From positions 1 through 64,000 of the forward strand of contig JALFLH010000034.1 in assembly GCA_022774865.1 (NCBI GenBank): 64,000 nt of DNA, written 5' to 3'. The first letter of the stretch is position 1. Every line of letters begins with the position of its first letter. The DNA comes from Clostridiales bacterium. GTDB taxonomy: Bacteria; Bacillota; Clostridia; Oscillospirales; Oscillospiraceae. The notes under the pieces were generated by a model. It worked only from the letters and a program-made list of their open reading frames with translations, ran no database searches and was not told the origin of the DNA. This document shows positions 10,950 through 18,505 of this stretch, piece by piece. A program made the translations under genes and the position numbers.

Positions 10950-11837
10950 ATGCTGGACTTGATCAATGCCTACGAAAAATACCTTACAAAGGTAAAACAG
11001 GCATCGGCCAACACCGTTTCATCCTATCTCAGGGATGTTCGGCAGTTTTCCGACTGGTTGCGGGAAACGCAGAATTGCGACGTGGTGGATGCTTCCCAAG
11101 TGAATATCAGCGGCTATCTTTCCCATCTGCAGGAGGAGGGGCGCTCCGGCGCTACCGTTTCCCGCACGCTGGCAAGCCTCAAAAACTTCTATTCCTATGT
11201 GGTTTCGGCTGGATTTCTGGACAAGTCCCCTGTCCCGGCTGATGTCCATGTGGAGCGCGGGGAGAAAAAACTCCCGCAGATTTTGTCCGGCAGGGAAGTG
11301 GAGCTTCTGCTGGCGCAGCCCGTCTGTGTGGATGCCAAGGGCTTCCGGGACAAGGCCATGCTGGAGGTCATGTATGCAACCGGTATCCGTGTAACCGAGT
11401 TGATTGATCTGGATGTGGACGATGTGAATCTGGACCTTGGCATCATCAAGTGCCGCAGCGCCAAAAAAACCAGAGTGATTCCGCTCTATCCCGCCGCGCA
11501 GAAGGCGCTCAGCGTATATCTGCGGGACATACGCGGCTCCATGGTTGCGATTCCCACGGAGACAGCCCTGTTTGTCAATGTGGGTGGAATGCGGATGAGT
11601 CGGCAGGGATTCTGGAAGATTCTGAAGCACTATCAGTCCACTGCCCACATTGAGAAGGATATCACACCGCACACCCTGCGCCACAGTTTTGCGGTACATC
11701 TTCTTGAGAATGGAGCAGATCTGGGTTCTGTGCAGGAGCTGATGGGACACAGCGATATCTCATCCACCCAGATGTATGCCCATATGATCAACGGAAAAAT
11801 CAAATCCGTCTATGATAAGTGTCATCCAAAAGCATAA
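10950..11837 (+). CDS. xerD: Tyrosine recombinase XerD-type
   Basis: XerD resolves chromosome dimers at dif together with XerC. The 295-residue length is typical. The N-terminal SAM-like core-binding domain covers about 1-90. The catalytic domain shows Arg in TGIRVTE, HTLRHSF (His-x-x-Arg), GHSD and the nucleophile Tyr in TQMYAHM. ATG follows a weak RBS; AAGGGTAAC precedes it. It sits downstream of a membrane gene as spoIIM-xerD do in other Firmicutes. A second recombinase of the same family lies 3 kb away and may be its partner, so the XerC/XerD labels could be exchanged. Confidence 0.88.
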   Translation: MLDLINAYEKYLTKVKQASANTVSSYLRDVRQFSDWLRETQNCDVVDASQVNISGYLSHLQEEGRSGATVSRTLASLKNFYSYVVSAGFLDKSPVPADVHVERGEKKLPQILSGREVELLLAQPVCVDAKGFRDKAMLEVMYATGIRVTELIDLDVDDVNLDLGIIKCRSAKKTRVIPLYPAAQKALSVYLRDIRGSMVAIPTETALFVNVGGMRMSRQGFWKILKHYQSTAHIEKDITPHTLRHSFAVHLLENGADLGSVQELMGHSDISSTQMYAHMINGKIKSVYDKCHPKA

Positions 11838-13014: not shown

Positions 13015-13045
13015 TTGACTGTAAACATGGTTTATAGTATATAAT
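13015..13045 (+). promoter_or_regulatory. MerR-type promoter with 19-bp spacer and operator dyad
   Basis: TTGACT (13015-13020) and TATAAT (13040-13045) are separated by 19 bp, the overlong spacer typical of MerR-activated promoters. Inside lies the dyad TAAAC-ATG-GTTTA (13022-13034), extending with one mismatch to ACTGTAAAC / GTTTATAGT. It is 24 bp upstream of the MerR-RDD gene itself, so autoregulation by DNA untwisting is the natural reading. An alternative 17-bp pairing would use TATATA at 13038. Confidence 0.7.
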
Positions 13046-13068
13046 GCGTACCGAAAGGGGGAAAGGCC

Positions 13069-14517
13069 ATGCTGATACGGGATTTGGAACAGAAAACAGG
13101 TCTCGACCGGGCTACCATTCGATACTATGAAAAAGAGGGATTTCTCAAGCCGGTACGCCAGGAAAACGGTTATCGAACCCATTCTGAGGATGATTTGGAA
13201 ACACTGCTGAAAATCAAGCTGCTGCGGCAGTTGGGTTTGTCCCTGGAGAAAATCCGGCAGGTTCAGCAGGGAAGAGAGGACTTTTCTGCGGCCCTTGGTG
13301 AACAGATAAGAATTCTGGAGGACCAAATTCAGGCAAAGAACCGCGCAAAGGATGTCTGCCGCCAGATGCGTGACGCAGGCGTGAGCTATGACAGGCTGAA
13401 CGCGGCCTACTATTTGGAACTGCTGAACAAGCCGGCGCAAACAGCACCGCCTGCAAGGCCGGAATTCCACGAACGGATTCAGCGGGAATACCATCCAATC
13501 CGGCGGTTTGCGGCGAGATTCATTGATTATGCCATACTGTCCTGTTGGGTTCGCTTTCTGCTGATCGTCGTTCTCCGGATTCGTCCCTTTGGAAGCTTCC
13601 TGTCGCTGGTTATCAGCTATGCCGTGTTCTTCCTGGTGGCAGCAGCCAACGCCCTTTGGCTGCATCTGTTTGGCTCAACGCCTGGAAAATGGGTCATGGG
13701 CCTGCGGGTAGAATCCTGCAACGGTGGAAACTTAAGTTATTTCGATGCGCTGCAGCGGGAACGGGATGTGCTGCGTTTCGGCCTGGGCTGGGGCATTCCG
13801 GTTTGGGAATTGTGGCGTTTATATCAAAGCTATAAACAATACCGCGATGAGCCCGATTTGAACTGGGACGAGGCGTGCGAGTACATTTACGAGGACTGGA
13901 GTGTCAAACAGAAGACAGCGCTGACAGGTTTTGTCTGTATCATTCTGGCCCTGTCATTTTCATTTGCACAGGATGTGACGAAGCCCAAATACCGGGGTAC
14001 GGATTTGACCATTGCGCAGTTCTCGGCAAACTACAATTTCTATCTGGATATGATGAGTAAAGACACTAGCTCCCAAAATCGCTTGAGGCCGGACGGCACC
14101 TTTGCGGATTCGCCCGGAACGGCGGTTATCTATGTATGCGCAGAACCCGAAAATAAGAATGCGTGTTTCCAGTATGAAACAGAGAATGGGTATATCCGAA
14201 CCATATCCTATGAAAACAGCTGGTCAAATATCTTTATGTTCAATCCAATGAACGGCAAATGTTCGCTGGCTGCGTTCAGTGTGCTGATGGCGCAGAACGG
14301 CTCCACATTGTCTGATTTGCGGGAATTTGAGGAAATCTGGGAGGAACAATGCCGGCTGCCAGAGGGAACGATTACATGGGAGAATATCGAAATTCGTTGG
14401 AAGATTCACGCGGTGAACTGCCAGAACCTGGATGGAGATTACAGGGCGATTGACGACACAGTGAAATCCAGTCTGCATTTGGAATTTGAAATGGTTATTA
14501 ATTCTTTCACTAAATGA
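13069..14517 (+). CDS. Membrane-anchored MerR-family regulator with RDD domain
   Basis: A 482-residue fusion. Residues 1-70 are a MerR winged HTH (IRDLEQKTGLDRATIRYYEKEGFL, continuous with a typical YRTHSEDDLE), followed by the MerR dimerisation helix to about 115. Residues about 145-260 form an RDD membrane domain with RFAARFIDYAIL, two helices, and STPGKWVMGLRV. A further membrane helix lies at 283-300, and residues 301-482 form a probably extracytoplasmic domain without a recognised family. This suggests a one-protein sensor that reads an envelope signal and acts directly on DNA. It is preceded by a MerR-type promoter, and GGGGGAAAGG lies before the ATG. The ligand and other targets are unknown. 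Confidence 0.85.
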   Translation: MLIRDLEQKTGLDRATIRYYEKEGFLKPVRQENGYRTHSEDDLETLLKIKLLRQLGLSLEKIRQVQQGREDFSAALGEQIRILEDQIQAKNRAKDVCRQMRDAGVSYDRLNAAYYLELLNKPAQTAPPARPEFHERIQREYHPIRRFAARFIDYAILSCWVRFLLIVVLRIRPFGSFLSLVISYAVFFLVAAANALWLHLFGSTPGKWVMGLRVESCNGGNLSYFDALQRERDVLRFGLGWGIPVWELWRLYQSYKQYRDEPDLNWDEACEYIYEDWSVKQKTALTGFVCIILALSFSFAQDVTKPKYRGTDLTIAQFSANYNFYLDMMSKDTSSQNRLRPDGTFADSPGTAVIYVCAEPENKNACFQYETENGYIRTISYENSWSNIFMFNPMNGKCSLAAFSVLMAQNGSTLSDLREFEEIWEEQCRLPEGTITWENIEIRWKIHAVNCQNLDGDYRAIDDTVKSSLHLEFEMVINSFTK

Positions 14518-14523
14518 TTGTAT

Positions 14524-14560
14524 GCGCCGCACCCGGCAAGCCATCGGGTGCGGCGCTGAT
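14524..14560 (+). terminator. GC-rich hairpin after the MerR-RDD gene
   Basis: Perfect 11-bp stem GCGCCGCACCC / GGGTGCGGCGC with an 11-nt loop, followed only by TGATAATTT. The T run is weak, so termination may be partial. Confidence 0.6.
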
Positions 14561-14689
14561 AATTTGAAAAGAGCAGAGTAGAGGGCCAAACGACACAAAA
14601 CCGATATTTTGTTGAAGCACAGACCCGGAGGCGCAGAATGGAACGAGGGTTCGCAGGATGCAGCACCGGGTATTAACAGACTATGTGCG

Positions 14690-14775: not shown

Positions 14776-15777
14776 ATGCAGCGCTATTCCGATTGCCCCC
14801 AAATTCTCCGGGACTTTCTCACATACCATGAAACAATTAAAGGTCAGTCGCCCAAGACCATATCCGAATACTATCTGGATCTTCGGATGTTTTTGCGTTT
14901 TATCAAGTTGATGCGAAATGAAATGCCCATTGAGACCTGTCTGGATGACATTCCCATCAAAGATGTGGATCTGGAATTTATCCGCTCCATCACCACATCG
15001 GAAATATTCGACTTTCTTTCTTATCTCGCCAACGACCGTATGCCCAGCCCGGATTCACCGGAACACGGGATTGAGGCCGCCGCCCGGGCGCGGAAGCTGT
15101 CGGCCATCAAATCCTTTTATAAATATCTGACGGTCAGAACCAAACAGCTTCAGGAAAACCCCGTTGCGGATCTGGAATATCCAAAGCTGCGCAAAAGCCT
15201 GCCCAGATACCTGACCATGGAGCAATCCGCCGCATTGCTGAAATCCGTTTCCGGGCCAAATGAAAAGCGGGATTACGCGATATTGATGCTGTTTCTCAAT
15301 TGTGGGATTCGCCGCAGCGAGCTGGTCGGGCTGAATCTGACGGATGTCTATGAGGATCGGATTCGGGTTGTAGGCAAAGGCAACAAGGAACGTTTCGTCT
15401 ACTTTGGCTCCGCCTGCCGAAAAGCCATTGATGCCTATCTGATCGAACGCAACAAAAAAGTGCTGTCTGACAACCGGGCCCTCTTTGGCTCCCGGGACAA
15501 CAACCGTATCAGCGTCACGGCTGTCCATCGCCTGGTGAAAAAAGCGCTGATGCAGGCCGGGTTGGATTTCACCCAGTTTTCCGCACACAAGCTGCGCCAC
15601 ACGGCTGCTACCATGATGCTATCTGGCGGCGTGGATGTGAAAACCGTTCAGGAGGTTCTGGGCCACGAAAATCTGAATACCACGCAGATCTATACCCACA
15701 TTGAGAATACGGAACTGAAAATCGCCGCTGAGGCAAATCCCCTTTCCAAATTGGATTTTTCCGATAAAAATGAGTAA
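14776..15777 (+). CDS. xerC: Tyrosine recombinase, XerC-like
   Basis: A 333-residue member of the lambda-integrase/Xer family. The N-terminal DNA-binding domain (about 1-120) carries a longer insertion than XerD. The catalytic residues are all visible: Arg in CGIRRSELV, Lys in GKGNKER, HKLRHTAAT, GHEN, and nucleophile Tyr in TQIYTHI. Proteins of this length are the usual XerC annotation in Oscillospirales, so it is probably the XerD partner at dif; an orphan integrase is the alternative. GCGGAGG precedes ATG. An inverted repeat over the promoter suggests regulated expression, unusual for a housekeeping Xer gene. Confidence 0.82.
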   Translation: MQRYSDCPQILRDFLTYHETIKGQSPKTISEYYLDLRMFLRFIKLMRNEMPIETCLDDIPIKDVDLEFIRSITTSEIFDFLSYLANDRMPSPDSPEHGIEAAARARKLSAIKSFYKYLTVRTKQLQENPVADLEYPKLRKSLPRYLTMEQSAALLKSVSGPNEKRDYAILMLFLNCGIRRSELVGLNLTDVYEDRIRVVGKGNKERFVYFGSACRKAIDAYLIERNKKVLSDNRALFGSRDNNRISVTAVHRLVKKALMQAGLDFTQFSAHKLRHTAATMMLSGGVDVKTVQEVLGHENLNTTQIYTHIENTELKIAAEANPLSKLDFSDKNE

Positions 15778-18011: not shown

Positions 18012-18058
18012 GACGCGGAACGATGGTTCCATTCTTTTTTGGATCGGAGGAATGCACA

Positions 18059-18505
18059 TTGGAACCGAAACAGGTTGAAAACAACGGCATGAATGGGCGT
18101 CTGCCGGCGATGGCGCCGCTGGCAAATCCTTATGTCCCATTCCAGTTGGAGAACCCTCCCAAGTACGAAGCCAGAAAAGGTCTGGTCAGAGGGACGCTGT
18201 ATCCCGGACTGGATCTTCCGTTTATGGGGATGATAAATCAGCATGAGCTGCCCGTCACCCACAAATCGGAACTGCAGGCACTGGGGTTTGCCATTCAGGA
18301 GCTTGCGCTCTATCTGGATACCCACCGGGATGACCGGGAAGCGCTGGAGCTGTACCGTCAGTACCAGAATCTATACCAGAAAGGAGCAGCGGAGTACGAG
18401 AAAATGCATGGCCCGCTGACTCACGGTGCGCCGGGTCAGGGAGAATGCTATGAATGGCTGAATGATCCCTGGCCGTGGGAATATGCGGCAAATAAGGAGG
18501 CGTAA
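18059..18505 (+). CDS. CotJA-CotJB fusion, spore coat protein
   Basis: CotJA and CotJB are small inner spore-coat proteins normally encoded by separate genes before cotJC. Here one 148-residue frame contains a CotJA-like part (about 15-65: YVPFQLENPPKYEARKGL then GTLYPGLDLPF) followed directly by a CotJB-like part (about 70-135: ELQALGFAIQELALYLDTHRD, ending EYEKMHGPLT). No internal start with an RBS separates them. The start is a TTG at 18059, chosen because CGGAGG lies eight bases before it and no in-frame ATG fits. It ends two bases before cotJC. A frameshift-free fusion is the direct reading. Confidence 0.8.
   Translation: MEPKQVENNGMNGRLPAMAPLANPYVPFQLENPPKYEARKGLVRGTLYPGLDLPFMGMINQHELPVTHKSELQALGFAIQELALYLDTHRDDREALELYRQYQNLYQKGAAEYEKMHGPLTHGAPGQGECYEWLNDPWPWEYAANKEA

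Follow-up and report, generated by a model that had tools for sequence, protein, structure and literature searches.

We found that one gene of a Clostridiales bacterium joins a MerR DNA-binding domain to an RDD membrane domain and a predicted outer domain, that its promoter carries a MerR-type operator which, judged from sequence, is conserved among relatives, and that this operator appears to be placed almost exclusively in front of genes for the same fusion. The window, i.e. the whole stretch of 64,000 nucleotides that was analysed, comprises positions 1 to 64,000 of the forward strand of contig JALFLH010000034.1 (GCA_022774865.1). The explanation that we prefer, and regard as probably correct, is a membrane-embedded one-component MerR switch, mainly autoregulatory, in which the outer domain and/or the RDD part reads an envelope signal. 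The features of the locus are given below.

13015-13020, + strand: -35 element TTGACT (sequence; each letter of TTGAC is present in 57-58 of 58 aligned promoters)
13020-13036, + strand: operator dyad, core TAAAC-ATG-GTTTA at 13022-13034, centre 13028 (pairing analysis)
13021-13039, + strand: 19-bp spacer between -35 and -10 (sequence)
13040-13045, + strand: -10 element TATAAT (sequence, promoter alignment)
13053-13061, + strand: likely ribosome-binding site GAAAGGGGG, 7 bases upstream of the ATG (from sequence)
13069-14517, + strand: merR-RDD fusion gene, ATG start, 482 aa (open reading frame list, Pfam, homologs)
13069-13269, + strand: MerR winged-HTH domain, residues 1-67 (MerR_1 profile; VIA-align hits SoxR, CadR, CueR, TipAL)
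13282-13428, + strand: dimerisation helix and next helix, residues 72-120 (model, alignments)
13357-13359, + strand: codon of the near-invariant Cys97, in the dimer helix (alignments)
13495-13572, + strand: RDD transmembrane helix 1, residues 143-168 (Pfam, hydropathy, model)
13594-13671, + strand: RDD transmembrane helix 2, residues 176-201 (Pfam, hydropathy, model)
13738-13848, + strand: RDD short helices 224-238 and 244-260, flanking conserved G238/G240/P244 (model, alignment)
13903-13977, + strand: transmembrane helix 3, residues 279-303 (hydropathy, model)
13978-14514, + strand: predicted outer alpha+beta domain, residues 304-482 (separate model)
14518-14562, + strand: strong hairpin directly 3' of the stop codon with a weak T-run (-30.4 kcal/mol for 14518-14577)

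The Pfam profiles MerR_1 and RDD (PF06271) match residues 2-67 (E 2.1e-17) and 143-295 (E 6.2e-13) of the fusion protein, both above the gathering score. Hydropathy maxima are located at 151-169, 174-192 and 283-301, and an AlphaFold2 model of the full fusion (pLDDT 93.2, pTM 0.72) has helices at 143-168, 176-201 and 279-303, followed by an alpha+beta domain up to 477. The domain borders proposed in the first-pass annotation (MerR 1-115, RDD 145-260, a helix at 283-300 and an outer part of about 180 residues) are close to these. The N-terminus has both the winged HTH and the dimer helix of the MerR family, and by prediction the same chain combines a DNA-binding domain with one or more membrane helices, as in transmembrane regulators. 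No TipAS-type drug-binding domain was found, Pfam at E<=0.1 giving only MerR_1, MerR, RDD and a sub-threshold MerR-DNA-bind. Alignment A1 had 117 rows (the short P0033, P0040 and P0105 of the 120 homologs were excluded) and alignment A2 consisted of the window's fragment and 106 homologs; Cys97 is kept in all 117 rows of the close alignment and in 56/60 of the wide set. When residues 303-482 were modelled separately (pLDDT 94.7, pTM 0.89), comparison of the model with the PDB gave no convincing match. The predicted topology would place the N-terminus inside and the outer domain outside; a fourth membrane crossing would fit in the RDD part, in which case the C-terminal domain would be inside. 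The helices 224-238 and 244-260 are possibly a re-entrant hairpin.

The promoter was compared across 60 loci, namely the window's own and 59 relatives that are 29-46% identical in the tblastn segment (genomes G353 and G331 are represented by two loci each, and L049-L051 are short forms). Of the relatives, 25 came from the search of the order, 8 from that of the genus, 25 from that of the family and one from a further search. For every locus a likely start codon was assigned and up to 110 bp upstream were extracted. Using one simple rule, the best spacing between -35 and -10 is 19 bp in 56 of the 60 loci; the exceptions are L048 with 17 bp, L051 with a not convincing 21 bp, and L025 and L076, which have no candidate. 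The promoter alignment reads roughly CTTGACTGTnAAsCnGCTTTAyannTTATAaT, with information that is high within the operator and at one C preceding TTGAC and mostly low outside until the ribosome-binding region. About the centre at 13028, 6 of 8 positions are paired in the window, and over 54 distinct operators this centre gives a mean of 5.3/8 complementary pairs, compared to at most 2.9 for the other centres tried. A mechanical rule (TTGAC, 19 bp, a -10 with at least 4/6 consensus letters and a dyad with at least 5/8 pairs) selected 41 of the 60 upstream regions, the window's included, and 2 of 12,000 dinucleotide shuffles made from these regions. Covariation within the dyad, estimated by shuffling the 3' letters, was weak (p 0.005 for pair 9/17, 0.02 for pair 7/19 and at least 0.055 for the remaining six), so the dyad claim is based on the centre and the conservation and not on covariation. 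No operator was found within 110 bp upstream in L025, L051 and L076; sites with two mismatches are present farther upstream for G135 (L025) and G636 (L076), and L051 is located after another MerR-RDD copy.

A dyad within a 19-20-bp promoter spacer, the mark of a MerR-family operator, is what most of these upstream regions contain. The first-pass annotation had read the window's promoter as MerR-type, with a 19-bp spacer and TAAAC-ATG-GTTTA at its centre, and had named absence of the dyad from orthologs, or use of a 17-bp pairing, as outcomes that would speak against it. Relatives keep the dyad, and the 17-bp pairing, which in the window would use a -10 of TATATA (4/6 consensus), is not kept in orthologs as far as the comparison goes; we reject it as the promoter since 17 bp is preferred in one locus only.

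The literature offers a mechanism for such a promoter. MerR proteins are described as acting on 19-20-bp spacers by shortening and untwisting them (review PMC9909328), the mer promoter has a 19-bp spacer (PMC11049809), and MerR-controlled heavy-metal systems have a palindrome inside a 19-20-bp spacer (PMC1526738). In the switch that we propose, a helix at about residues 72-102 would mediate dimerisation of the MerR domain, and the dimer would occupy the dyad within the 19-bp spacer of the gene's own promoter. On a signal received through the RDD membrane part and/or the outer domain, it would bend and untwist the spacer and turn the promoter on. The main target, and in most genomes the sole recognisable one, would be the fusion gene itself, so that the circuit would adjust how much of the membrane protein is made. 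Both the direction in which the promoter is regulated and the nature of the signal are what we infer; that it is an envelope signal, as had been suggested earlier for this gene, would fit the predicted topology, the greater variability of the C-terminal domain compared with the HTH, its absence from some short forms, and a few extra operator sites that precede membrane or secreted genes.

In order to assess placement, sites were counted genome-wide as pattern matches by number of mismatches, with the reversed pattern as control; as placement was judged by pattern, targets with weaker sites could be missed. At up to one mismatch, 46 of 50 gene-carrying genomes have a site, one each, and the control has none. 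At up to two mismatches, 80 gene-carrying genomes have 83 sites in 78 genomes, versus 4 control matches. Of the 83 sites, 79 precede a MerR-RDD gene on the same strand by no more than 500 bp, and 77 of them by no more than 150 bp. Conversely, 79 of the 83 MerR-RDD genes in these genomes have a site within 500 bp, and none was found that close upstream of one G353 copy and the genes of G795, G641 and G825. Promoters from 47 of the 80 genomes had gone into the search pattern; among the 33 that played no part in it, 30 have a site next to the gene, the exceptions being G641, G795 and G825. We also sampled 101 genomes of the genus. Six of them, the window's G000 together with G484, G421, G409, G448 and G403, have a protein match at E<=1e-40, and all seven sites with zero or one mismatch are within these six, with none in the 95 others; among the 95, G418, G436 and G437 have relatives that match less strongly (E 1e-33 to 1e-39) and whose sites have 2-3 mismatches. 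In the window's genome the single site at up to three mismatches is the fusion gene's own promoter. Self-regulation, which had been no more than conjectured for this gene, is more than plausible because hardly any sites occur away from the gene's own promoter and the presence of the site follows that of the gene; comparison of sequences argues well for it. Since nothing else carries a recognisable operator in most genomes, either the protein itself would be most of the output or further targets would have weaker sites.

The first of these options can be read as effector first, i.e. the membrane and outer part does the job, for example by cation/proton exchange or by binding and neutralising a compound that acts on the envelope, while the MerR domain serves as an inbuilt thermostat for its level. 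In that case the gene would be its own regulon, the protein being the output, in the manner of the TipA family. Such a reading partly coincides with the autoregulatory switch, the difference being the purpose of the protein, and we would put it somewhat short of an even chance. The near-restriction of the operator to the own promoter agrees with it. So does a hairpin with a T-run, present soon 3' of the gene at 34 of the 59 loci that have sufficient flanking sequence, although this count comes from a loose rule with no shuffle control and 4 of the 34 are CIRCE-like repeats and not terminators. The RDD core is conserved across the 60 loci (R146 and R150 in 59; D153, K207 and R230 in all 60). 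One locus, L147:1389-2547, the only MerR-RDD relative in G1103, has kept the RDD part, the outer domain and an operator with two mismatches while most of the HTH is missing; this is a single genome, and the loss may be a real deletion or an assembly error. As for activity, TipA proteins are described as minimal autoregulated drug-resistance systems (PMC7762955), and transport is possible for the membrane part because one RDD protein, from Halobacillus, is reported to be an Na+(Li+,K+)/H+ antiporter (PMC5996927). However, the residues reported to be essential in the Halobacillus protein could not be placed with certainty in the fusion (position 267 is D/E in 57/60 loci and 271 is acidic in only 25/60).

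The second option is a pleiotropic regulator for which its own promoter would be no more than the best-matching site and whose larger regulon would be reached via weaker operators. Some sites point that way, and 'self only' is not absolute because G403, G535 and G421 have extra sites elsewhere. Contig 10 of G403, a genome which also has a MerR-RDD gene, carries at L136:3161-4630 a perfect operator, 33 bp upstream of the probable ATG start of an NfeD gene that is followed by an SPFH/Band 7 gene; the pair is a candidate for a second, membrane-related target. In G535:C29 a site with no mismatch precedes a 335-aa protein with a signal-peptide-like start (L133), predicted to be secreted. The other three off-gene sites of the gene-carrying genomes precede an apparent shortened or shifted extra MerR-RDD copy (G641, L134), lie at a contig end with letters identical to that genome's other site (G797:C9), or have two mismatches and may be chance (G782:C17). 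The genus adds six sites with two mismatches: two precede MerR-RDD genes (G437 and the second copy in G421), one a protein with one membrane segment (G421, L137) and one (G445, L139) a MerR protein other than the fusion, with three membrane segments, whereas that of G268 is near another MerR-like hit on the opposite strand and that of G420 is unexplained. Against a wider regulon stand the lack of a second site at up to three mismatches in the window's genome and the 73 genus matches at that level, against about 100 with the reversed pattern (control columns added up by hand), which leave a large regulon at relaxed mismatch unsupported. We consider the pleiotropic reading unlikely.

It is highly improbable that a different MerR protein reads the operator in trans while the fusion protein does not bind. 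The operators of related MerR proteins are generally alike, which speaks for it, but the site tracks the gene (6/6 versus 0/95 genus genomes) and the assembly of G000, 96% complete, has one MerR_1 hit, which is the fusion protein itself; a second MerR protein acting in trans in the window's genome is rejected on this account. A chance palindrome within an ordinary sigma-70 promoter, for which the window's 17-bp alternative -10 might be quoted, is almost certainly wrong, given that dyad and 19-bp spacing are conserved and that the mechanical rule fits 41/60 regions versus 2 of 12,000 shuffles.

The family comprises 390 proteins at E<=1e-3, the window's own included, out of 7995 candidates scored, and MerR and RDD labels are on all of the 120 homologs listed of the 390. 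The distribution of the fusion is patchy: it is present in 24/394 genomes of the order at E<=1e-40 and, at E<=1e-30, in 68/400 at family rank and 5/291 of the class, the window's own being counted each time. Four class members lie outside the order; the operator is preserved with 1-2 mismatches in three of them and absent from L146. Most sampled genomes of the genus have no strong match, and many of them are incomplete. In L044-L048 (84-89% identity) pfkA adjoins the gene in opposite orientation, and because pfkA is kept beside the gene the position of the locus appears to be old within the genus. Mean identity to the window's protein over 116 close relatives decreases from the HTH (69%) to the RDD part (49%), the outer domain (36%) and the third membrane helix (23%), and the short forms L049-L051, of 286-296 aa, end past the third membrane helix. 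A different operator core, TGTACACCGGGTACA, occurs in the short form L049 and the second G421 copy (L143), which suggests joint divergence of regulator and operator. Within the genus, membrane segments are also predicted for other MerR proteins (L052-L056, L059, L060, L062, L139), some of which have MerR-type promoters; the L139 protein, which corresponds to the L052 gene and is the one checked for RDD, has no RDD by Pfam.

Several features were observed next to the genes. The hairpin at 14518-14562 is a candidate terminator that the terminator rules we applied did not call. In L026, L075, L078 and L087, inverted repeats TTAGCACTC...GAGTGCTAA are located about 48-59 bases past the MerR-RDD stop codon; these resemble the CIRCE element, and a heat-shock operon may be downstream of the gene there. 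On contig 16 of G403 (L141:5029-6058) the MerR-RDD gene is followed by two small co-directional genes with hydrophobic starts and no Pfam match, which may belong to its operon. In the window, two tyrosine recombinase (phage integrase family) genes, at 10950-11837 and 14776-15777, flank pfkA and the MerR-RDD gene, and at 18023-18505 CotJA and CotJB spore-coat domains are fused in one 160-aa open frame.

A more far-reaching version of our explanation would regard the gene and its promoter together as a complete envelope-response system, in which a transcription factor is joined to its membrane effector and has its own gene as regulon, a membrane counterpart of the TipA logic that is kept in several families of the order and, outside it, in the class. 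The outer domain would then act as a new kind of sensor or binder at the envelope, with Cys97 as a possible second, cytoplasmic input. We offer this version tentatively, as one that may well claim too much. For transmembrane regulators in general, how a protein held in the membrane reaches and works its promoter is an open question. MerR proteins would be a clean test of membrane-held regulation because they act by bending the spacer DNA, and a family that combines a single protein with a single operator and, as a rule, a single recognisable target makes the question of promoter access directly testable. The conserved operator is also a ready assay for the signal of the outer domain and for the role of RDD domains.

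The pairing of MerR and RDD is already visible in precomputed Pfam labels, and in a literature search on MerR with RDD or a membrane MerR protein no title or abstract start describes one. Transmembrane regulators are a recognised and large class for which a survey reports over a hundred DNA-binding domains (PMC10269533); we found no mention of MerR in its main text, and its supplementary domain tables may count MerR cases. The fusion resembles ToxR, CadC and BcrR, as presented in that survey, in having a DNA-binding domain and a membrane part in one protein, but its HTH is of MerR type and would be expected to act via spacer distortion. With RDD proteins, as described in PMC5996927, it shares conserved Arg/Asp residues and membrane helices and differs in being joined to a DNA-binding and an outer domain, transport being reported there for one RDD member. 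With CueR, CadR, MerR and SoxR, as reviewed in PMC9909328, it shares the N-terminal winged HTH, the dimer helix and an operator dyad in a 19-bp spacer. These regulators have a small cytoplasmic C-terminal ligand site and usually serve separate effector genes, whereas the fusion has a membrane part and an outer domain in that place and would serve mostly its own gene. The closest working analogue is the TipA class (TipAL, SkgA), in which, as in the fusion by our reading, a MerR protein is described as controlling its own promoter in a minimal autoregulated system; the account in PMC7762955 gives TipA a TipAS drug-binding domain and describes no membrane part, whereas the fusion has a predicted membrane part and no TipAS domain found by Pfam.
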